Of a stretch of DNA of 64,000 nt, positions 28,731-42,344 are shown piece by piece. The stretch's first letter is position 1. Each line of letters opens with the position of its first letter. The notes beneath the pieces are model-generated. The model was not told the DNA's origin, did not search any database, and saw only the letters and a list, made by a program, of their open reading frames with translations. Source of the stretch: Leuconostocaceae bacterium ESL0958 (GTDB lineage: Bacteria; Bacillota; Bacilli; Lactobacillales; Lactobacillaceae); contig JAQTHT010000003.1 of assembly GCA_029433265.1 (NCBI GenBank), forward strand, positions 1 through 64,000, read 5' to 3'. A program made the translations under genes and the position numbers.

Positions 28731-29951
28731 ATGAATATTTTGAAGCAAGACGGTGAAGGCGATAATTGGCGCCGGAACGTTTGGGTTGTTTGGCTCGCCG
28801 TCTTTATGGCGGGCGTGGCCTTTTCCGAAGTCATGCCCTTCCTGTCCTTGTATATCGACACACTGGGCCATTTTAGCCGCTCAGAATTGACCTTTTATTC
28901 AGGTGCTGCTTTTGCCATCACCTTCTTGGTGTCAGCGATTGTTTCCCCCTTCTGGGGTAAACTAGCAGACCTGAAGGGCCGGAAAATCATGATGCTCCGA
29001 GCCGCCCTCGGCTTGGCTATCGTCATGTTTCTGATTGGTTACTGTCAAAACGTTTGGCAGCTGCTCTTTTTACGGGCGGTTTCTGGGGCACTGGGCGGCT
29101 TCATTTCCAATGCCAACGCCTTGATTGCTACCCAGACACCCAAGGAAAATGTCGGTCGGGCCCTCGGCATTGTCGTGACTGGCTTTACGGGGGGGTCGCT
29201 AGTCGGTCCCCTTTTCGGGGGGACACTCGCTTCCTTTACGTCTTACCGGACTGTCTTTCAAATCACCGGCTTGATTTTACTGGTCGTATTTGTCTTTATT
29301 TACTTTTTCATTACTGAAAAAAAGGTAGCTGCACCCGATCCCGACCAGGAGAAGGCACCCGGCCACAGCTGGAAAACGATGGCCAATAAGAAGTTGCTCA
29401 TCAGCCTATTCGTGACCACCATGCTGGTCCAGGCCGTCAATATGTCCATCAATCCCATCGTCTCCCTTTTCGTGAAGGAAGTCCTTCATAACCGAGGCAA
29501 TGTGACCCTAATTGCTGGGATTGTAGCAGCCATGCCAGGGCTGGCAACCATGCTCTTTGCGCCTAGCTTTGGCCGTTTAGGCGATCGCTTCGGCACCAGT
29601 AAAATGATTTCGATTGGTTTCGCACTGGCCATCCTCGCCTTTGTGCCAACCGCTTTTGTCACCACTGTGCCCCTGTTGATTTTCTTCCGCTTCGCCATTG
29701 GGGTGGCCGATGCTACCCTTTTGCCGGCCATCCAAACACTGCTCTCCCGCCATGCCGGAGAAGGTATGGTTTCCCGGGTATTCTCCTATAACCAGTCCTT
29801 TCAATCCATGGGCTCTGTGATTGGCCCCATGCTGGGGACGCTGGTTGCCACACTCTTTGATTACCGGGCTATCTTTATTTGCTCAGCCCTCATCATGGCC
29901 ATCAACGGCTCACTCTTTTATTTCAACGTTCACCGAAAAATCAAACAGTGA
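28731..29951 (+). CDS. MFS transporter, probable multidrug efflux
   Basis: A 406-residue major facilitator with about 12 predicted membrane helices. The motif A region between helices 2 and 3 reads GKLADLKGRKIMM, with a second copy (GRLGDRFGTSK) in the C-terminal half. The closest family in general appearance is PmrA/DHA1-type drug exporters; the substrate is unknown. TCGGAGG lies upstream of the ATG and a weak promoter with -10 TAGAAT is at 28685-28690. It is monocistronic and divergent from rel. Confidence 0.85.
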   Translation: MNILKQDGEGDNWRRNVWVVWLAVFMAGVAFSEVMPFLSLYIDTLGHFSRSELTFYSGAAFAITFLVSAIVSPFWGKLADLKGRKIMMLRAALGLAIVMFLIGYCQNVWQLLFLRAVSGALGGFISNANALIATQTPKENVGRALGIVVTGFTGGSLVGPLFGGTLASFTSYRTVFQITGLILLVVFVFIYFFITEKKVAAPDPDQEKAPGHSWKTMANKKLLISLFVTTMLVQAVNMSINPIVSLFVKEVLHNRGNVTLIAGIVAAMPGLATMLFAPSFGRLGDRFGTSKMISIGFALAILAFVPTAFVTTVPLLIFFRFAIGVADATLLPAIQTLLSRHAGEGMVSRVFSYNQSFQSMGSVIGPMLGTLVATLFDYRAIFICSALIMAINGSLFYFNVHRKIKQ

Positions 29952-29990
29952 AAAAGGTTGCCTGTTCAACAATGAACAGGCAACCTTTTA
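29952..29990. terminator. Bidirectional terminator between the MFS gene and orf95
   Basis: A stem AAAAAGGTTGCCTGTTCA with its complement, a five- to six-base loop and a T-rich flank on both strands. Confidence 0.9.
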
Positions 29991-30275
29991 TTTTGTATCT
30001 GATTGCGGCAATGGCATCGTTTCTTTCGTAAAACGGCCCAGTGGTTGATAATCGTGCCGATCCTTAAATTTTAATGGATGCTCGGCCAAAATCACCAAGC
30101 GCATCTTTTTTTCGGTCAGTGCAATCTGCCCGGGCCCCTGAAAGCGACCTTTGGTATGTTTCCCAATCCGCCACTGATGAACGGCTGCTTGGGGCAAGGG
30201 TTGATACTGACCGGGCCCAATTTCCGCTACCGGCAAGCAGTCATAGTAAGCGGTGTGATAAGTTGACTGTCCCAT
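29988..30275 (-). CDS. Unknown 95-residue protein at the end of the pyrR-carA-carB cluster
   Basis: Not recognised. A 95-residue, basic, soluble protein rich in Gln, His and Pro, with no signal peptide, membrane helix or cysteine pair motif. It begins MGQSTYHTAYYDCLPVAEIG; the middle carries GKHTKGRFQGPGQIALTEKKMRLVILAEHP. It is probably real: CAGGAGG lies at good spacing before the ATG and inside the 3' end of carB, its ATG is three bases after the carB stop, and the gene ends exactly at a strong terminator. The context suggests a partner of the CarA/CarB-like proteins, but no function is claimed. Confidence 0.7.
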   Translation of the reverse strand: MGQSTYHTAYYDCLPVAEIGPGQYQPLPQAAVHQWRIGKHTKGRFQGPGQIALTEKKMRLVILAEHPLKFKDRHDYQPLGRFTKETMPLPQSDTK

Positions 30276-30278
30276 GCG

Positions 30279-32798
30279 CTAGTCCTCCTGTTCGAAGGCC
30301 ACTAAACGCGGCCCCATCTCAAAGCGGGTCGCATCAATCACCTGGTCGGGTTGCAAATGCAAGGCAAAGTCCGAGCGACCGGCTACCATAGCCAAAGGCT
30401 TTTGTGGCATCGTTTGGGCTGCCAATAGCTGTTCTTGATCAGCTGGTGATAGTTGCCCCACTAGCGCCCGAATCAAATAGCGGACCAGCGGTAGGCCCAG
30501 CACCTTAGACAGGTAGGCTAAATGGCCGTAAGGCATCGGCCGAAGCCAGGCGTCCGTTGACAGATCTGGCATAGGGACCTGCTTCTGCCAAGCAAAGACT
30601 GGCCGCCGCCAGATAATTTGATAAAAACCAGGTTGCTGGGGCTGTAAATCAGCCAAAAAGTCCGCTGGAATGGTGTTCTTTAAGAGCCGCAGCTCTCCCT
30701 GTCTGTGCTGTGTCAGCGCCAACGGATAGGTTCGCTGTCCATCGTAAAAGAAACTCAAGTTAAATTCAGATTGATTGCTATCCGGTCCGTCTGGTTGATG
30801 CTTTTCCTTGGGCAGAACAAAGACCGTTTGGCCCAGTTTTTGCAGCGCATCAATCAATTTACGACGGTTTCCCGGCACCAAAATGGCCTGAGGGGCTTCC
30901 TGGTCAACAACAGCCATCACATCAGAAGTTTCCAATGGTTCCAAATACTGTTTGTCCGATAAATGCGGTAACAGCGAGGCATCCGCTGCCGAGTTATTGA
31001 GCACAATTGTCTGATAGTTCAACCGGCGGAGTTCAGCTAGCGCGACCGTGAGGACATAGCCGGCCGCCGCACCGTCCCCCATTCGAAAGGCGCCAGCACC
31101 CACAATCAATACCGACTGCTGCCCTAATTGGCTCGATTCATTTTCCGACTCAAAGGTTGCATAGTACTGATGGGCATGTTCTGGAAATTCCCCTGCCGTT
31201 GGTTCCAAGGCCTTGTAGGTTGGCAAAATGTCCGCCAACTGTCCCTGGGCCCGAATTGTTTGAAAATCTCGCTGCCAGAAGCGCGCAATCAAGCCGTCCG
31301 ACAGGCCGGACTCTTTGCCGATTTGCAACATCTGCTGATTACCAGGGGCCGCTTCAATTTTTTGTTGGATGGCAATCAGACGCTGTAATTGATAAAAGTA
31401 AAATTCATCAATGTCCGTTAATTCGGATAGTTCATCCACCTCATAGCCCCGCCGCAGCGCTTCAATTAGCAGTAAGACCCGGTTATCCTGGGGATGAATC
31501 AACTGCTGAATCAGTTCGTCATCCGTCAGTCGGTCCATGAATTCCGGTGAAAAAGAACGGTTATTAAAATGGGCCGCCCGAATGGCCTTTTCCAAGGCCT
31601 CGATAAAGGTCCGGCCAAAGCCCAAAGCCGAGCCGACCGACTTTTGGATAGACCCTAGCTGTCGATTGACCGTTACACCAGCTGCCGCCAAATCCCCAAA
31701 AGAGAAGATGGGCAGTTTGACCGCAATATGATCCATCACGGGTTCCATCATCGCTAGTTTTTGATGGTAGGACTGAGGTAAAGTGACCGCGGTAATGGGC
31801 AAGCCCAGTGCCAGTTGCACGCCGACCAGCATGGCCGGATAGCCCGTTACCAGCGCTAAGCGGCTGGCCACCAAGTCTAAGTAAGGGGCCACCTTGATAA
31901 TGTAGAGCGCATCCGTTTTTTCGTCAAAGGCAAACTGGACGTGTAAGAAGCCCTGCACGCCCAGCACTTCGGCAGCGAGAAAGGCCTGGCTGCGCATTTC
32001 TTCCAAGACCCGGTCCGCCACCGTCAGGACGGGGGCAACGGACAGTGAATCCGAACTGTGGATGCCAATGGGGTCCATGTCTTCGCTAGCCCCAATCTGC
32101 AAAGTATTGCCCCGTTGATCACGGGCGACCAATAAAGAAACCTCTTTCATGCCATTAATGGCCCGGGAAATCAGGACATCGTTGGTTAGCGACTGGGCCC
32201 GGACTTGTTCGATAGCTTGGTCAAAGTCATCCAGGCGGTCCACGATTCGCTGTGTATTGCCCACTTTAGGATGGTGGGCACGAATGACGAGTGGCAAGCC
32301 ATAATCCCGCAAAAATTGATTAGCCTCGGCCGAAGAGCTCGCAGCTTCTGCCTCCAAAATGGGTAGTTCAGCTAGCGCCAACCGTTCCATCAGGGCCCGG
32401 CCGTCCCGGACATCCTGCACCGTTTGGACCGGTAAGCCCAGGGTTTCCGGTTGGAAGCCATTCCGTTCGTCCTGCCAATCGGACAGTACTTGCCCCCAAA
32501 GGCGGACGGCCCGCCGACCGCCAAAGACAGGGAGCACCGCCTCAATCCCTTCTTTTTGAATCAACGACTGGACGGCGGTCACCGTCAGGGGTGCAATCAC
32601 CGTCTCAGCTACTGTTGATTCCAAGGAAAGGGCGTAAGGATTATCGTCCAAGACATAGGGCTGGTAGCCCATCTTTTTCAACAGCGGAATCACCTGATAA
32701 ATGGCGACATCGGTTTCCCCCTGGAGGCCAAAATCAGTTTCCCCGCCCCCAATCAAAAGAATTTTCTTGGCATTGGTTTTAGTTGGATTCTTGTACAT
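30279..32798 (-). CDS. carB: Truncated, probably non-catalytic carbamoyl-phosphate synthase large-subunit homologue
   Basis: An 839-residue CarB homologue; normal CarB is about 1060. In order: pre-ATP-grasp domain, first ATP-grasp domain (to about 400), oligomerisation domain, second Rossmann-like domain from about 551, then a shrunken remnant of the second ATP-grasp and no allosteric domain. In the first ATP-grasp, Arg173 and the GIH of GIHSSDS are kept, but the glycine loop is KVGNTQR. The strand that normally reads IEMNPRVSRS is IKVAPYLDLV, replacing the metal-binding Glu and Asn and the Arg with Lys302, Ala304 and Tyr306. Carbamoyl phosphate synthesis therefore looks impossible, yet the frame is open. 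It overlaps carA by 20 bp and is followed by orf95. Confidence 0.85.
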   Translation of the reverse strand: MYKNPTKTNAKKILLIGGGETDFGLQGETDVAIYQVIPLLKKMGYQPYVLDDNPYALSLESTVAETVIAPLTVTAVQSLIQKEGIEAVLPVFGGRRAVRLWGQVLSDWQDERNGFQPETLGLPVQTVQDVRDGRALMERLALAELPILEAEAASSSAEANQFLRDYGLPLVIRAHHPKVGNTQRIVDRLDDFDQAIEQVRAQSLTNDVLISRAINGMKEVSLLVARDQRGNTLQIGASEDMDPIGIHSSDSLSVAPVLTVADRVLEEMRSQAFLAAEVLGVQGFLHVQFAFDEKTDALYIIKVAPYLDLVASRLALVTGYPAMLVGVQLALGLPITAVTLPQSYHQKLAMMEPVMDHIAVKLPIFSFGDLAAAGVTVNRQLGSIQKSVGSALGFGRTFIEALEKAIRAAHFNNRSFSPEFMDRLTDDELIQQLIHPQDNRVLLLIEALRRGYEVDELSELTDIDEFYFYQLQRLIAIQQKIEAAPGNQQMLQIGKESGLSDGLIARFWQRDFQTIRAQGQLADILPTYKALEPTAGEFPEHAHQYYATFESENESSQLGQQSVLIVGAGAFRMGDGAAAGYVLTVALAELRRLNYQTIVLNNSAADASLLPHLSDKQYLEPLETSDVMAVVDQEAPQAILVPGNRRKLIDALQKLGQTVFVLPKEKHQPDGPDSNQSEFNLSFFYDGQRTYPLALTQHRQGELRLLKNTIPADFLADLQPQQPGFYQIIWRRPVFAWQKQVPMPDLSTDAWLRPMPYGHLAYLSKVLGLPLVRYLIRALVGQLSPADQEQLLAAQTMPQKPLAMVAGRSDFALHLQPDQVIDATRFEMGPRLVAFEQED

Positions 32799-33858
32799 AG
32801 TCCGCTACCGTTTCAAAAAAGTCTGTAATGATGACGCTGGCTTCGAGTGGTCCTGGTGCCCCGTCTGGGAAAAACTGCACAGAAAAAGCCGGAAAGTCCC
32901 GGTGGCGCAGGCCCTGAATGGAATCATCAACCAGATCACGATGAGTGGCGAAGAGCTTGTTGGCGTTCAAGGAATGCCAGTCCACGACATAACCCCGGCC
33001 CTGCCGGGCATAGAAAATCTGCTGAGAAATAATTTCCTGAATGGGATGGTTCATCCCATGGTATTCGGCTGGCAGTGCCTGAAGTGAAGCGCCGTTGGCA
33101 AGGGCAAATAATTCGTGGCCCAAGCCCACACCAAGCAGCGGTGCCTTGGTCTGCAAAACACGAATCAACGTCAGCACTGATTCCGGTAGATCCTCCGGGT
33201 TACCAGGGCCAGTCGACAAAATAATGCCATCTGGATCCAAAGTCAATACCTCATCCACCGTGGTCGAATAGGGTAAGACGGTCACATTGGCATCGTACTC
33301 CCCCAGAATCCGCAGAATTCCGTGCTTCAAGCCAAAGTCAATGACGATAATGTGAAAGCCATGGCCAGGATTGGCATAAGCCTTGGGAGTAGCCGTATTT
33401 TGTACCTGCTTATTGGTCAGCACCGTGGCATTTAACTGATCGAAGGCATGGTCGTCCACCACGTCAACAATCGTCGCCTTCTGTGGGCCCGTTTCCCGTA
33501 AATGGCGAATGAGTTGGCGCGTATCCACCTGACAAATGCCGGGCACATTATGCTGCTTTAAAAAACGATCCAAGTTCATCCGCCGCTGTCGGTTCGTGGA
33601 AACTTCAGCTAAATCATGCACAATCACCCCGCGCACTTTGGGCGCAATCGACTCATAGGCTTCTGCATGAATCCCATCCGCCCCCACTACGGGCATGGCA
33701 AAAACAATCATTTGGCCGTCATAAATCGGATTTGTAATGGTTTCCTGATAGCCAACCATGGCGGTATCAAAAATAATTTCGCCAAAGGTGGTTGCTGGTG
33801 AACCGAAGCCCTCGCCAGCAAAAACTGTTCCGTCTTCTAAAATGAGATGTCGTGTCAT
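32779..33858 (-). CDS. carA: CarA homologue lacking the glutaminase catalytic residues
   Basis: A 359-residue homologue of the small carbamoyl-phosphate synthase subunit, normal in length. The N-terminal CarA domain is recognisable (GYQETITNPIYDGQ) and the C-terminal class I glutamine amidotransferase fold is complete (DFGLKHGILR, LSTGPGNPEDLPE). The nucleophile motif, normally GICLGHQ, is GVGLGHE, so Cys is Gly245. The catalytic HPE motif is FPD, so His is Phe330 and Glu is Asp332. The HGY motif histidine is also lost (QGRGY). It cannot hydrolyse glutamine by the normal mechanism. GGGAGAACT precedes the ATG. It lies 42 bp after pyrR and overlaps carB. Confidence 0.88.
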   Translation of the reverse strand: MTRHLILEDGTVFAGEGFGSPATTFGEIIFDTAMVGYQETITNPIYDGQMIVFAMPVVGADGIHAEAYESIAPKVRGVIVHDLAEVSTNRQRRMNLDRFLKQHNVPGICQVDTRQLIRHLRETGPQKATIVDVVDDHAFDQLNATVLTNKQVQNTATPKAYANPGHGFHIIVIDFGLKHGILRILGEYDANVTVLPYSTTVDEVLTLDPDGIILSTGPGNPEDLPESVLTLIRVLQTKAPLLGVGLGHELFALANGASLQALPAEYHGMNHPIQEIISQQIFYARQGRGYVVDWHSLNANKLFATHRDLVDDSIQGLRHRDFPAFSVQFFPDGAPGPLEASVIITDFFETVADYVQESN

Positions 33859-33900: not shown

Positions 33901-34428
33901 TTAGTTCGTAATTTCTACGGCATCCCGGCCATCGACTTCTTCTACTAGGACCCGAATTTTTTCAGTCTGCGCCGTTGGAATATTTTTCCCAACAAAATCA
34001 GCCCGAATTGGTAGTTCCCGGTGGCCTCGGTCCACGAGTACCGCCAGAGAAATCGCTTGCGGCCGGCCAATTTGAATTAAGGCGTCCAAGGCGGCCCGGG
34101 TCGTCCGACCCGTGTAGAGCACATCATCCACCAAAACAATCTTCTGATCAATAATGTTGACCGTCTCATCTGGATTAAGACCAAAATTATCTTCCTCATG
34201 CAGACGGTCATCCCGGTAATTGGTGATATCAATGGCCATCACCGGAATCTGAACCTGTTCTAATTGTTCCAAACGGTTGGCAATGCGTTGAGCTAAGAAC
34301 TCGCCCCGGGTCTTGACCCCGACCAAAATCAAATCCTGGCCGCCCTTATTGCGTTCCAAGATTTCATAGGTAATTCGTGTTAAGGCCCGTTGCATGGCGG
34401 CCTGATCCAATACGACTTTTTCTGCCAT
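33901..34428 (-). CDS. pyrR: Bifunctional pyr operon regulator / uracil phosphoribosyltransferase PyrR
   Basis: A 175-residue PyrR. The PRPP-binding loop [20 protein letters not shown] is conserved, as is the [15 protein letters not shown] segment typical of the family. PyrR binds UMP and pyr leader RNA to attenuate pyrimidine genes and has weak uracil phosphoribosyltransferase activity. The start at 34428 has GAAGGAG upstream. Unusually, no PyrR-type attenuator fits the short spacers here (22 and 42 bp), and pyrB, pyrC, pyrD, pyrE and pyrF are absent from the window, so its RNA targets must lie elsewhere. Confidence 0.95.
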
Positions 34429-34465
34429 TTTTCTCTCCTTCATTGTGACGGCTACAACTAGGTCC

Positions 34466-35377
34466 CTACTGGGCTGCTAATAGGTCGAGCACCCTTTGAA
34501 ATACTGCCGGTAACGGTGCGTGAAAGGTCAGCTCTTGCCCCGTTTTTGGCTGGGTTAACGTTAGACTTTCCGCATGCAAGAGCTGCCCCGGCAAGTTAAT
34601 CTGACCAATCTTTTTTTGCCTTCCGTAGACGGGATCCCCGACCACCGGGTGCCCGATATAGGCTAAATGCACACGAATTTGATGCGTACGGCCAGTCTCT
34701 AACTGTAATTCTAGTAAGGTATAGCCAGTAAAGCGTTCCTTGACCTGAAAATGAGTCACGGCCTGCCGGCCACCAACTTGAACCGCCTGTTTCTTGCGGT
34801 CCTTGGGATGACGACCAAGGGGCGCATCAATCGTCCCCTCATCTTCTGCAAACTCTCCGGCGACCAGGGCCAGATAGTGCCGCCCCGTTTTATGGGCCTT
34901 TAGGTCCTGGGCCAGTGCTTGGTGGGCTTGGTCATTTTTGGCCACCATTAGCAAACCGGACGTGTCCCGATCAATCCGATGAACGATCCCCGGTCGAAAA
35001 GTGCCGTTAATCGTTGAAAGCGGGGCGTGATAAAGAAGGGCGTTGACCAGAGTCCCCTGCGCATGCCCCGGTGCCGGGTGGACGACCATCCCCTGCGCTT
35101 TGTTCACCACGATGAGATCATCGTCTTCATAGACAATGTCTAGCGGGATGTCTTCTGCTTGCAAGTCCGTTGTACTTGGCTCTGGAATAGTCAGTTCAAT
35201 GACGTCCCCTGGTGCCACCTGGTAAGACCGTTTGACGACCTGTCCATTAACCAGCACCTGCCCGCCTTGAATTAGTTTGGTCAATGCTGAACGGGAGCTG
35301 GCAAAGGATTCGTTGGCCAAAACAGCATCCAAGCGGCCCTGTTCATCCTGAATGGTTTTCTGAAAATGTTGACTCAT
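34466..35377 (-). CDS. rluD: RluA/RluD-family 23S rRNA pseudouridine synthase
   Basis: A 303-residue pseudouridine synthase. An N-terminal S4 RNA-binding domain ([20 protein letters not shown]) is followed by the catalytic domain with the [16 protein letters not shown] aspartate motif and [23 protein letters not shown]. It corresponds to YlyB/RluD of Firmicutes, which often lies next to pyrR. Its ATG overlaps the stop of the upstream ebsA gene by four bases. The precise uridine targets are inferred. Confidence 0.93.
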
Positions 35378-35754
35378 GACGTGCTTTCCTTTTTTAGTTG
35401 ACGGGCAAAGGCAAAGGAAATCAAATAACGACTGGCAATGCCCTCACGCCAGATGGTTAACCGCCGGCCCTGTAGCAGCCAGTGACTACGATCCCTTAAA
35501 TCAAAACTTTGATCCGCTTTCTTTCCTAAGAAGGAGATAATCAATTCATGGTCGGACAGGTAAATCCGCCGGCGTAGATGCAGCACTAAACCTAGCGCTA
35601 AGATAATGACTGTGTAAAGCAGCCAGGGTAAGTTGACCGCATAAAATAATTCACTAGCCCAAATCGGACTAATCAATAGGAAGACCGTCCACCAAGTCCA
35701 TAATATCTTGGACCCGGTTGTTATCGGTTGGTAGAAACCCCGAACAAAAGTCAT
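35374..35754 (-). CDS. ebsA: EbsA-family membrane protein
   Basis: A 126-residue protein with two closely spaced membrane helices (about residues 20-60) and a C-terminal cytosolic domain with RRIYLSDHELIISFLGKK and DLRDRSHWLLQGRRLTIWR. It resembles the EbsA family of lactobacilli and enterococci, once called pore-forming; the function is unresolved. The start at 35754 has AAGGAGTG upstream, making the first 25 codons of the longer frame unnecessary. It is first gene of the ebsA-rluD-pyrR-carA-carB-orf95 cluster and divergent from the RNase H gene. Confidence 0.8.
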   Translation of the reverse strand: MTFVRGFYQPITTGSKILWTWWTVFLLISPIWASELFYAVNLPWLLYTVIILALGLVLHLRRRIYLSDHELIISFLGKKADQSFDLRDRSHWLLQGRRLTIWREGIASRYLISFAFARQLKKESTS

Positions 35755-35843
35755 GCGAACACTCCTTGTAACGAATTTGATTCCCTTTATTTTACCATTT
35801 AGGCAGGCAATCTGGTATGCTGTTCTCATGAAAGGGGGGGCTT

Positions 35844-37016: not shown

Positions 37017-40000
37017 TTACTTGGTCCACTTGGACTTTACTTGCGCCCAAGCAGCCAAAACCATTGACAATGAAGCAAAGGCGAATAAGTAAGCCGACTG
37101 AAGCTGCCTGTTAGTCTTTGCCGTATTTGGTAGGGCCGTCGCTTGCTGGTCTTGCAGCAAATCCGCTGCTGCCTGCGACTGAGCCGGCCAGAGAATACGA
37201 TGGGTTGGCGCATTGACAGCAACCGCAGCTGTTGAAACTGGCGCTCCCTGATCGCCAGCCGCCGTCGCGCTATCCAACGCTGTATTAACGACGGTCTCTT
37301 CTCCTTGATTAGCAGTTGCTACTTGCTTGCCAGCGCTCTGATTGTCAGTTGCTGCGGCTTGTTCGGCTGCTTGACTGACTCCCTTCTCATCTGATTCGGC
37401 TGGATTGCTGTCAGCCGCGTTAGCGGATCCGTCAGCCTTAGCCTGGTCTGCTTCGGGATCTGTAGTCGCGCCGTCCTTCGACTGGCCATCAGCCTTAGCC
37501 TGATCTGCAGCTGGAACTGTGGCTGCGCCATCTGCCGGCTGACCATTGTCATCTGACTGGTCTGTATTTGAATCCGTCGCTGCGCCATCCTTTGGCTGCA
37601 CATCAGTGCCAGCCTTATCGGCATTATCCTGCTGTCGCTGGCCAATTGCTTGTAACTGATGCTGCAAATCCTGGAACAGTTGCCGTAAATCACGGTTCGT
37701 TTCAGCCACCGCAACCTTATCTAGGGCAGCTTGAACGGCATCCGCTACTGCCTTCAAATGCTGATCCAGTGCGGCAGGGTCTGCCGCCCAATCGTGACGC
37801 AGGCTGTCTTCCTTAGCGTCTTGTAAAGCCTTGATTAAATCAGTCACTAACTTTCTTTGGGCATCCGTTGGTACTTGATAATCCGGCTGTAGCGCTGGTG
37901 CTGCGACTGTCTGAATTGCTTCGATAGCCTTGCGTAAGGCATCCGCTAATTCGTCATTGGTATTCGCTGCTTGAATGGCCTTCAAAGCATCTTCCGTACG
38001 CTTGGCCAATTCGGCTAGTTGATCAGCCAAAGACTGGGCCTCTACATGGTCAATTTGGCGGAAGTCATTGCCCTTATTGTCCGCTAACGCCCGAATTGTG
38101 TCTTCTGCCGCTGCTTTCTTAGCTGCTGGGACTGCTGCTGCCCCAGGGAGTTGCTTGGGATTAGCTAAGTCATTAATGTCTGAGAGCGTCTGGTCAAGGA
38201 CCTGCTTCAAGTCTGCCTGGTTATTCGCCGCCGCCACTGCCTGAACGCCTGCCGCGACAATGTCGTCTAATTGTCGATTTTGTTCAGCCAGAGAAGCTGG
38301 GTCAACATTTGGTAACTGGGCCAACTGCCGCTTCTTCGCTGCTTGGGCCTGGTGAATTTGATCAAAGGCAGCCGCGCGGTCAGCAGCGGAGGGCCTGTCA
38401 GCGCTTTTGTCTGCTGGTGCTGGCAAAGTTGATGGCACCGCAACGGCCGCAATGTCTTGCAGGCCCTGTTCAACGGCGTCTGCCAGTTCTTGGTTAGTGG
38501 CCGCTTGCGCAACGGACCTTAATGCCTTTTGCAGAGCGATTTCCACCTGATCTCGCTGCCGCTGCAGGGACTGTGGGTCCACCTGATCAACGGCTGCCAT
38601 GTCCGCTTTACGAGCATCGGCCTGTTCCGTCAAGGCATCACTTGCCTGTTGCCGTTGGTGAGCAGTAGGTGCTTGGTAGGCGGCTAACAAATCCGGGCTA
38701 GCAACTGCCTGCAAATCTGACAAAGCCTGCTGCAAAATTGGTTGAATGGCAGCGGCGTCTGTCGTTTTTTGAATCCGAGCAACGGCCTGCTTTGCAATGG
38801 CTGTCAGCTGCTCGCTTTGCGCCGCCAAGGAGCTTGGATCCACGTGGGCAATCCCTTGGAATTGTCCCTGCTTAGCCTTGGCAAAGGAAGTCACCTCTTG
38901 GCTCGCGAGCTCTTGTAGGGCCCGCAGATTATCTGCTTCAGATAGTCCCGGTGCCGTAGCAGCTAGCTTTGGTAAGGCCACTGCTTGAATGGCACCCAGT
39001 CCCCGCTTCAAAGCTGCGTCCAACTCCGCCTTTACCTTGGCCTTTTCCAGCTGTTGCTTAGCCTTGGCAAGCACTTGCTTTAATTCCTTGCTTTGGGCAG
39101 CTAAACTAGCAGGGTCGACTTGGTCTAGCTGGTCAAAGGCTTTTTGCCGCCAGACAGCAGCCTGGTCTAACATTTCATTGGCCAGTGCGCGGTCAGCCGC
39201 AGTGACCGGCCGGTACTGGTCTGCCACATTTGGTGCAGGAACCGCAGCAATTGCAGTCAATGCATTTTCTTTGGCCGCTGCCAGTGCACCATTGGTTGCA
39301 GCTGCTTCAATCGCCCGCTGTCCATTGGCTAAAGCCTGTGCTACTTGGCCTTTTTGAGCCAGCAGTTCTTGAGGATCAACATGATCAATCGCTTCGAAGG
39401 TCTGGTTGCGAGCTTTTGCAGCTGCAGCAATGGCTGCCTGTGCAGCCGCTTTCTTCACTGCATCCGCAGGCTGGTAATCGAAAAGCAGCGCTGGTGCCGG
39501 CACATTCTGAATGGCCTGTAGGCCATCAGCCAAGGCTTGTTGCAAAGCCACTGCATCTTTTGCAGCAGCCATGTTTTTGAGTCCAGTCGCAACGGCATCA
39601 TCCACAGCTCGTTGGCTATCTGCCAGGGCCTGTGGGTCCACCCCAGCCAAATGGGCAAAAGCATCTTTTTGGTCTTGGCCAGCCTGTTTGAGGATTTCTT
39701 GACTCAGTGAACTTTGCGCCTGATCCAAATGTAGCGCAGCCAACTGGTTCAAGTATTTCTGCAACAGTTGGTGTACGGTTCCTTCGTATTGGGCTTGTTC
39801 AATAGCTTTTTCCCCTTGACGCTTAATGGTCGCCACTTGCCCAATCAAGGTCTTTTGCGCAGCATCAGCTAACTGTTGGTCTTCCTGAATGCTATCAATC
39901 ACTTGCCTTGCTTTTGCTTCCAAAGCCTGCTTGGCCAGTGTTTTCGCTGCAGCCAACCGAGCCGCTGCTAAATCGTGCCCTTGTCCAGCCCGACTTTCGA

Positions 40001-42344
40001 CTTCTTGGATATCCGCAATGGTCTGCCCTTCCACATCGGCGACCTGATTGACTGTGCCAGCCATGGTCAATTGACTGTTGGCACTGGCCACCAAGTTCGT
40101 TACTTCTTGGAAGTAACTAGCCAGTAGTGCATCATCCAACTTTGGTTGCAGGCACTTGATGACCACCTTCGTATGCAACGCTTGGGCTGCGATTGCTTGG
40201 GAAGCGGCCTGCTTCATTTGATTCAAAGCGTTTTGTGCCGGATCCGCATTGGCCGACCGCTTCTGCAGTACGCGCAGTTGCGTGCCCCGCAACGGAAGAA
40301 CCTTGCCATTTTGCAGGGTCATCGTGCCGGTGTAGTAGACCGTAAACGGCCGATCATAGATTTCAAAGGCAGCTGGATCCGTAATTTGTCCTTGCGGGTC
40401 AAGTGATTTCTTAATGGTAACCTGCTTCACTAGTTGGTCACTGACCTGTTCTGATCCATAGACCCAGTAGTGTTTGTCAAAGTAATCCACCACATGATCA
40501 AAACGATAAGGATTATCCATGAACTTTTCGTCGACCAAGGTCACCATGCGATGGTCCAAATCAGATCCTGGCAGTCCGTCCGTCATGCCTGCCCATTCCG
40601 CCCATTGCGGACCATTCGTCGTTACCTTTTGACTATTCAACTGACCAGCTGTATCTCTAGGCGAAATATAGGCGCGCCAGGTTGGTACGGAGGAAAACGG
40701 TAAGGGATTCGCCTTTAGCTTGTCCTTCTTAATCGCAATGTCTCGACCCAGGTCTCCTTGGCCCCCATAGTCCTTCTCTTCCTTGGACACCATGGTTTCA
40801 GCATCTAAGGCATACATGGTCGTGGCCACTGCGCCAGTGGGGTCCGGCGGCAGCTGCCCTCTGGTCAGTACCTTATGAGGACTGTCATCCGCATAAGGGG
40901 CCAGTTCTTGATATTGTTTGGAATCAGCACCAAAACGTTCCTTCAATTCTGATTGTGACCAATTCCCGGTATAGCGGTCTAAGTCAAAATTCAGGTAGCC
41001 ATAGGCACCGCCCTTGATGTTGCCGCCCCAAGACAAAAGGTTCATAAAGAGTTTGGTGATCAGCACCTTGGCTTGCAAGAAGGCACCGTTGTGGTGCTTC
41101 AGATTATCACCACGGACTAGCAAATAAAGGCCGCGTGGATCCTTCGCCACGTTTGTTTTAATGTCCTTCGGGTAGAGGGTAATGGGATAAAAAGGGCTAT
41201 CCAAACCAGCTAAGGAATAGTGGGTCCCATGTTCCTTGTTCACGGCATCAATAGCCCGCCCCAGGATGGCATCCCCGATGGAACCGCCATAACCTGAAAT
41301 AGGCAATCCCAGCGCGGTCGAGATGATGGTCGTTAATCCTGGTACTTGCCGGATCAATCGATCCAAGCCCAAGGTGACGTTCAAGTCCATCTGACTACCA
41401 AAGTGGGTATTCTTGAGATTTAACGTTTTAACAAATTCTTCTGGATTAACTCCTTCCGGCATCTCCATCCGCAAATAAATGCCATATTGTCCCTGGTCAT
41501 AGTTCTGATTCAGTTTATTTTGAACCAAGCCCAAGGAGAGTACGTTCGTGATGGAAGCAACCGTACTTTTCACCGCTTCATAGTAGTAAGCGGGATTGAG
41601 CATCGAATGGTTATTCGAAATAATATTCGCTGAAAAAGGGAAACCCCCGCCGTAAGAAAGCGTATTCTGATCCGGGTAATAGTTCGTTTCAGAACCTTTG
41701 ACCTGACCACCATAGATTTTCTTCAGGCTGTCTAAGAGCTTTCCAATGGCTGATTCATCGGTAGTAAGCCGCATCACCGAAACGTTGGCATAGTCATTGG
41801 TTACGCCCGACAAGTAACTGTACTTTTCTTCTCCGAAGTCCATCTTGCCCGGGCGGTCGACATATTGTTTGCCATCATCTAACTGCGCATCGCCCGGATG
41901 GTCCGTATTCGCTGGGTAGCCGCCGACTGACTTCGTGATGGCTTCGTAAGCAGTTCCCTCCCGTGAATAAATGCCGTCTGGACTAATTGCCTTGCGAACC
42001 GGCACCATTGGTTCCGCTGGCGCTACTGTTTCCTGCACCGGGTCGTTACTGCTATCCTGATCTTTTGTGACGGATGATGCTGTCTGCGCTTGGCTCGTCG
42101 TATCAACTGGTGGCTTCACCAGCGCCGCCGCTGCCTGTTCTTCGCTGGCGTTGGGGATGGCTGTCCCATTTGTTGGATGAGTTTGATCCTGTTGTTGACC
42201 GGTCTGCGCCGTCTCGTCCGCAGCCGCTGCTGTCGGCCGTTCTGCCAAGAGCAGTCCTGCTGAAAGAAAGGCAGAAGAAGCCAATAGCCACGTTTTATTT
42301 TTTGAAATTTTAAACGAATTGGCCAAAAAAGTTTTGTTATCCAT
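37017..42344 (-). CDS. Giant repeat-containing wall-anchored surface protein with LPNTA motif
   Basis: A 1775-residue secreted protein. A signal peptide (about residues 1-42) is followed by a Gln/Thr/Ala-rich linker to about 115, then an unrecognised N-terminal domain to about 720. Eight degenerate helical repeats of 87-93 residues, each with a VDPxSL-type anchor at about 901, 988, 1075, 1169, 1255, 1346, 1433 and 1520, resemble DUF1542-type modules. An acidic low-complexity stretch (DQAKADG-type) comes next. The C-terminus has a sortase-like LPNTA at 1738-1742, a hydrophobic helix and a short basic tail. The A in place of G in LPxTG is unusual. An adhesin or biofilm role is plausible but unproven. 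Confidence 0.9.
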   Translation of the reverse strand: MDNKTFLANSFKISKNKTWLLASSAFLSAGLLLAERPTAAAADETAQTGQQQDQTHPTNGTAIPNASEEQAAAALVKPPVDTTSQAQTASSVTKDQDSSNDPVQETVAPAEPMVPVRKAISPDGIYSREGTAYEAITKSVGGYPANTDHPGDAQLDDGKQYVDRPGKMDFGEEKYSYLSGVTNDYANVSVMRLTTDESAIGKLLDSLKKIYGGQVKGSETNYYPDQNTLSYGGGFPFSANIISNNHSMLNPAYYYEAVKSTVASITNVLSLGLVQNKLNQNYDQGQYGIYLRMEMPEGVNPEEFVKTLNLKNTHFGSQMDLNVTLGLDRLIRQVPGLTTIISTALGLPISGYGGSIGDAILGRAIDAVNKEHGTHYSLAGLDSPFYPITLYPKDIKTNVAKDPRGLYLLVRGDNLKHHNGAFLQAKVLITKLFMNLLSWGGNIKGGAYGYLNFDLDRYTGNWSQSELKERFGADSKQYQELAPYADDSPHKVLTRGQLPPDPTGAVATTMYALDAETMVSKEEKDYGGQGDLGRDIAIKKDKLKANPLPFSSVPTWRAYISPRDTAGQLNSQKVTTNGPQWAEWAGMTDGLPGSDLDHRMVTLVDEKFMDNPYRFDHVVDYFDKHYWVYGSEQVSDQLVKQVTIKKSLDPQGQITDPAAFEIYDRPFTVYYTGTMTLQNGKVLPLRGTQLRVLQKRSANADPAQNALNQMKQAASQAIAAQALHTKVVIKCLQPKLDDALLASYFQEVTNLVASANSQLTMAGTVNQVADVEGQTIADIQEVESRAGQGHDLAAARLAAAKTLAKQALEAKARQVIDSIQEDQQLADAAQKTLIGQVATIKRQGEKAIEQAQYEGTVHQLLQKYLNQLAALHLDQAQSSLSQEILKQAGQDQKDAFAHLAGVDPQALADSQRAVDDAVATGLKNMAAAKDAVALQQALADGLQAIQNVPAPALLFDYQPADAVKKAAAQAAIAAAAKARNQTFEAIDHVDPQELLAQKGQVAQALANGQRAIEAAATNGALAAAKENALTAIAAVPAPNVADQYRPVTAADRALANEMLDQAAVWRQKAFDQLDQVDPASLAAQSKELKQVLAKAKQQLEKAKVKAELDAALKRGLGAIQAVALPKLAATAPGLSEADNLRALQELASQEVTSFAKAKQGQFQGIAHVDPSSLAAQSEQLTAIAKQAVARIQKTTDAAAIQPILQQALSDLQAVASPDLLAAYQAPTAHQRQQASDALTEQADARKADMAAVDQVDPQSLQRQRDQVEIALQKALRSVAQAATNQELADAVEQGLQDIAAVAVPSTLPAPADKSADRPSAADRAAAFDQIHQAQAAKKRQLAQLPNVDPASLAEQNRQLDDIVAAGVQAVAAANNQADLKQVLDQTLSDINDLANPKQLPGAAAVPAAKKAAAEDTIRALADNKGNDFRQIDHVEAQSLADQLAELAKRTEDALKAIQAANTNDELADALRKAIEAIQTVAAPALQPDYQVPTDAQRKLVTDLIKALQDAKEDSLRHDWAADPAALDQHLKAVADAVQAALDKVAVAETNRDLRQLFQDLQHQLQAIGQRQQDNADKAGTDVQPKDGAATDSNTDQSDDNGQPADGAATVPAADQAKADGQSKDGATTDPEADQAKADGSANAADSNPAESDEKGVSQAAEQAAATDNQSAGKQVATANQGEETVVNTALDSATAAGDQGAPVSTAAVAVNAPTHRILWPAQSQAAADLLQDQQATALPNTAKTNRQLQSAYLFAFASLSMVLAAWAQVKSKWTK

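Follow-up and report, generated by a model that had tools for sequence, protein, structure and literature searches.

The window analysed here is a stretch of 64,000 nucleotides from the 1.30 Mb, Fructobacillus-like genome of Leuconostocaceae bacterium ESL0958. On its minus strand lies a tight run of genes in the order orf151-rluD-pyrR-carA*-carB* (Table 1), where carA* and carB* denote predicted pseudoenzyme forms of the two subunit genes of carbamoyl-phosphate synthetase (CPS). As originally predicted, both frames are open and overlapping, the overlap being 20 nt. The extent first given for the pair, 29988–33858, was correct at 33858; the other end lies at 30279, and 29988–30275 holds only an open reading frame that does not belong to the pair. 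The terminator-like stem-loop sits between carB* and a convergent MFS gene (28731–29951, plus strand). The original prediction had also suggested looking for a second, functional carAB, and we found one on another contig of the same genome, within a separate complete pyrB-pyrC-carA-carB-pyrD-pyrF-pyrE operon that has no pyrR in it. Elsewhere in the window, 37017–42344 on the minus strand encodes a repeat-rich surface protein of 1775 aa whose C-terminus has an LPNTA-like motif and a hydrophobic tail.

Table 1. Features of the carA*-carB* locus, in window coordinates.
Feature	Coordinates	Strand	Remarks
Terminator-like stem-loop, 17 pairs	29952..29989		+ strand with T-rich tail; consensus match only
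carB*, predicted CPS large-subunit pseudoenzyme, 839 aa	30279..32798	-	Open frame; profile and alignment evidence
carA*, predicted CPS small-subunit pseudoenzyme, 359 aa	32779..33858	-	Open frame; profile and alignment evidence
pyrR	33901..34443	-	Sole PyrR gene detected in this genome; carA* follows after 42 nt
rluD-like pseudouridine synthase gene	34466..35377	-	Conserved upstream neighbour; 22 nt before pyrR
orf151, small protein	35374..35829	-	Open frame; 4 nt overlap with rluD; present at several relatives

Alignment of CarA* with E. coli CarA placed Gly245 at the nucleophile Cys269 and Phe330 at the catalytic His353, confirming two replacements that had been noticed at the outset and setting CarA* apart from active small subunits by these residues. 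Glu249 aligns with Gln273, Ile45 with Ser47, and a Gly stands at Asn311. The change of Glu to Asp332 had been counted as a further loss; however, Asp also occupies this position (Glu355) in the live CarA of Fructobacillus and lactobacilli, and the change is therefore not a loss. Eight differences between CarA* and live CarA are strictly fixed, three of them in the glutamine pocket, and the pocket replacements Ile45, Gly245 and Glu249 are themselves conserved. The Gly at the nucleophile elbow might be the residue to expect once a strained Cys is no longer needed. The predicted fold of CarA* (mean pLDDT 82) matches the CPS small chain by structure comparison, and CarA* passed both curated models of the active small subunit (NF009475, 400 bits with a cut-off of 221; TIGR01368, 343 bits with a cut-off of 307).

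Similarly, alignment of CarB* with E. coli CarB placed Lys302 and Ala304 at the metal ligands Glu299 and Asn301 of the first ATP-grasp, as had been proposed, and CarB* thus lacks the ligands of an active large subunit. Tyr306 aligns with Arg303 and Gly133 with Arg129, and the glycine loop, rightly described before as altered, has Gly175/Gly176 in line with Val179/Gly180. In the first nucleotide site, Glu215, Gly241, Ile242 and His243 are retained, as is Gln285 in most cases, suggesting that mainly the catalytic and metal-binding part of this site is gone. CarB* has 839 residues, compared with about 1060 aa for an active large subunit. Its match to the CPS large-chain model stops at position 636 of 1052, and it failed both curated models of the active large subunit (TIGR01369, 390 bits with a cut-off of 1027; NF003671, 382 bits with a cut-off of 599). 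The early end of the match and the low TIGR01369 score indicate that the second ATP-grasp is a remnant and that the allosteric domain is absent, consistent with the shrunken second ATP-grasp and missing allosteric domain of the original prediction; by these domains, too, CarB* falls outside the active large subunits. The predicted fold (mean pLDDT 89) nonetheless matches the CPS large chain by structure comparison. The most conserved parts of CarB* are the oligomerisation domain and pre-ATP-grasp 2, and in this region the canonical QFGG stretch has become a conserved PGNR. Overall, the changes in CarA* and CarB* look like remodelling followed by conservation, rather than erosion.

We next consider how the pair has been maintained across Lactobacillales, to which genome sampling was confined. 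Full-length CarB* was found in 13 of 13 sampled Fructobacillus genomes, ruling out an artefact of a single strain or assembly, and the named CarB* orthologues found were all from Fructobacillus. Among 301 Lactobacillaceae genomes, the best matches were short CarB-like frames of ~830–900 aa from many genera, and a search with CarA* gave a matching distribution. In 40 of 40 aligned pairs, from about 20 genera, Cys269 of CarA is replaced by Gly and Glu299 of CarB by Lys or Arg. For pairs of sequences with usable dS, dN/dS was 0.002–0.02 for CarA* and 0.016–0.066 for CarB*; values for live CarA and CarB were mostly 0.02–0.05, with one distant CarB pair at 0.08. Across the same seven species, CarA* sequences were on average 91.2% identical and CarB* sequences 74.2%, against 76.7% and 76.0% for live CarA and live CarB, respectively. 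Constraint on the dead small subunit is therefore stronger than on the live one.

These data bear on whether the pair is a decaying relic of an old pyr operon. The loss of catalytic residues and C-terminal domains, and the existence of several host species without the pathway, would fit decay, which had been raised initially for a strain that imports pyrimidines, with a dN/dS near 1 as its expected sign. By contrast, the observed dN/dS is far below 1, the frames are full-length in every genus member sampled, CarA* is more conserved than live CarA, and the replacement residues are common across genera. We consider decay to have only a minimal probability, and reject it on the basis of dN/dS and family-wide conservation. 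With a homologous fold, lost catalytic residues and conservation by selection, the status of CarA*B* as a pseudoenzyme is well supported by the sequence comparisons. The conservation of Ile45, Gly245 and Glu249 in the CarA* pocket would also be expected if the pair had acquired a new catalytic activity on another substrate. However, the amidotransferase site has no nucleophile; Glu299, Arg303 and mostly Asn301 are replaced in the only remaining ATP-grasp site; and in a divergent group of loci (L123-L125) the Gly is present without the other pocket residues. A new activity thus appears quite improbable.

In a phylogenetic tree, 37 CarA* sequences sampled from these genera formed one clade (SH-aLRT 100), apart from live Fructobacillus CarA. 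Other dead CarA sequences fell outside this main clade (genera g3, g8, g9, g10, g14, g17, g21, g22, g27 and g35, and locus L128 from another family); these probably represent later or independent inactivations, an uncertain assignment given that some lie on long branches. A single origin of all dead CarA was not supported: the starred branches require four changes or more when L088, L090 and L095, which have Cys (GICMGHQ), are counted among them, and long branches urge caution. The rluD-pyrR-carA*-carB* order occurs at nearly all CarA*B* loci. In another Lactobacillales family, locus L138 has the order rluD-pyrR-pyrP-pyrB-pyrC-carA-carB with intact residues, and four intermediate loci have the order rluD-pyrR-pyrP-carA-carB with Cys replaced by Gly in CarA; CarB is full-length but damaged in L119, L121 and L122, and is 643 aa long in L120. 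The best explanation of these arrangements is that CarA*B* derives from the CPS of an ancestral rluD-pyrR-pyrP-pyrB-pyrC-carA-carB operon, and that catalysis was lost from both subunits early in the history of the Lactobacillaceae, the proteins being retained thereafter.

Other forms of dead or damaged CPS were seen. L128 (genome G309, another Lactobacillales family) has Cys replaced by Gly and His by Asn in CarA, and Glu299 by Gly in CarB, within an otherwise complete pyrR-pyrB-pyrC-carA-carB operon, and is a separate case. L129 (G044, genus g33) appears to be inactivated as well: in its CarA the Cys is kept and His353 is replaced by Leu, and in its CarB Glu299 is replaced by Ala. The most degenerate CarA* and CarB* (659 aa) of all are those of L126 (G020, genus g9), where PyrR has no PRPP loop and retains a DRGHRELPI...GKN.PTS stretch.

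Canonical CarB was above the cut-off in 40 of the 56 genomes with CarB*, was not found in 15, and was split in the remaining one (G250), where the gene is divided into two overlapping frames (G250:C1:765001-767900). Aspartate transcarbamoylase (ATCase, PyrB) above the cut-off was missing from 12 of the 56, with CarA*B* and PyrR kept. Loci L030 and L031 come from genomes without canonical CarB and PyrB and have an intact rluD-pyrR-carA*-carB*. The pair might, without catalysis of its own, modulate the living CPS or a different carbamoyl-phosphate enzyme, for instance by forming mixed CarA/CarB oligomers. Retention of the fold, including the oligomerisation domain, one of the best-conserved regions of CarB*, is consistent with such a role, but the 15 genomes that keep CarA*B* without canonical CarB, and the 12 without ATCase, argue against it, and we regard it as improbable.

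PyrR was present in all 56 genomes with CarB*; since PyrR is nearly universal in these genomes, this co-occurrence is weak evidence for a link. At most loci pyrR lies beside carA*B*. The exceptions count against a link to PyrR: in genera g2 and g5, pyrR is located away from carA*B*, which adjoins rluD, and in G028, a genome that is 87% complete, the carAB at rluD is dead and PyrR was not detected. The rluD-pyrR adjacency is itself ancestral, which also counts against the link. In three further genomes (G040, G244 and G298) no PyrR match exceeded the family cut-off, and all CarA-like matches there looked canonical or weak, with no main-clade CarA*. Alternatively, the pair might have a structural or moonlighting function that does not involve PyrR, with the linkage simply inherited from the old operon; this would account for the unlinked or undetected PyrR of g2, g5 and G028. 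We nevertheless consider it unlikely because in most genera pyrR and carA*B* have stayed linked although every pyr gene between them was lost, and because the divergence of PyrR and CarB* is correlated beyond that of RluD (partial r 0.58-0.69 in a mirror-tree test, which is suggestive only).

PyrR RNA elements were detected in 33 of 38 CarB* genomes searched, many of them preceding pyrB or an operon-type pyrR. By coordinate comparison, no element preceded a carA*-linked pyrR in the 38 genomes, and the 64-kb window itself gave no match, so that a PyrR attenuator in front of this operon was rejected. Five Fructobacillus genomes had no element above the threshold; in G001, pyrB was preceded by a single weak match. 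In pathway-less species, inspection by eye placed two elements before a pyrP-like gene and two before a nucleoside deoxyribosyltransferase-like gene. The location of these elements away from the carA*B* operon suggests that the module does not belong to the pyrimidine-controlled operons and would act in trans.

The job of CarA*B* is very probably non-enzymatic and is likely to be regulatory. On balance, we favour the view that CarA*B* is a non-catalytic pseudoenzyme pair that partners PyrR in trans, with genomic association as the basis for the PyrR link. Of the two alternatives in the original prediction, retention of the pair for a PyrR-linked role other than catalysis gains support from family-wide orthology, invariant replacement residues, very low dN/dS, the stable rluD-pyrR-carA*-carB* order and persistence after pathway loss. 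Carbamoyl phosphate comes from a separate CPS unless the species has lost the pathway. CarA* and CarB* would still form a heteromer. A metabolite may then be bound without turnover in the remodelled glutamine pocket of CarA*, in the nucleotide pocket of CarB*, which would be free of metal (several nucleotide-site residues are kept and Lys or Arg takes a metal-ligand position), or in both. Ligand-bound CarA*B* would modulate PyrR, which would in turn act in trans on the RNA leaders of uptake and pyr genes. Direct sensing of bicarbonate or CO2 at the old carboxyphosphate site is disfavoured because Arg303 and the metal ligands are replaced. More tentatively, CarA*B* could be part of an undescribed Lactobacillaceae regulatory complex in which a whole CPS has been turned into a catalytically dead metabolite sensor working with PyrR. 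Such a sensor, if real, would give PyrR a second input, possibly related to glutamine, nucleotides or inorganic carbon, and would survive even where pyrimidine synthesis has been lost.

CarA*B* resembles glutamine-dependent CPS (CarA/CarB, or PyrAA/PyrAB) in the homology and predicted fold of both subunits, in the order of the gene pair and in its apparent derivation from a PyrR-linked pyr operon. It differs in having no amidotransferase Cys and His, in the replaced metal ligands and Arg303 of ATP-grasp 1, and in the reduced second ATP-grasp and absent allosteric domain of CarB*. Ammonia-dependent CPS I (human CPS1) has an amidotransferase domain without the catalytic Cys, as does CarA*, and matches the predicted folds of CarA* and CarB*. 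However, the synthetase of CPS1 is active, whereas the synthetase half of CarA*B* appears to be dead too, its residues being replaced, which places the pair outside the CPS I type. Pseudoenzyme regulators such as HisZ, a paralogue of HisRS, are likewise dead paralogues kept under strong selection; in CarA*B*, by contrast, the dead proteins are the two subunits of a heteromeric ATP-grasp/amidotransferase complex, and they sit beside an RNA-binding attenuator protein.

According to a title cited in PMC3582564, PyrR2, a second PyrR of Lactobacillus plantarum, is reported to regulate the pyr operon by inorganic carbon. Genus g38 is probably Lactiplantibacillus; in two of its genomes, one PyrR gene belongs to the pyr operon and another immediately precedes carA*B*. 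The reported inorganic-carbon role is therefore a lead for the function of CarA*B*; our literature search found no paper connecting PyrR2 with inactive CarAB. Nor did we find a description of an inactive CarAB pair or pseudoenzyme CPS in the literature searched, which misses most subscription journals. Dead paralogues acting as regulators are already known; a complete CPS that is dead and adjoins PyrR seems, from our search, to be new. That a CPS should be dead in both subunits and yet have a small subunit more conserved than its live counterpart implies an important function in a large group of food and gut bacteria. The pair may explain how signals other than UMP/PRPP reach PyrR in lactic acid bacteria, such as the inorganic-carbon response reported for PyrR2. 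CarA* passes the NCBI equivalog cut-offs for the active enzyme, such that automatic annotation hides the probable non-enzymatic role and metabolic models can wrongly credit species with carbamoyl-phosphate synthesis, which is relevant in the 15 of 56 genomes where canonical CarB is missing.
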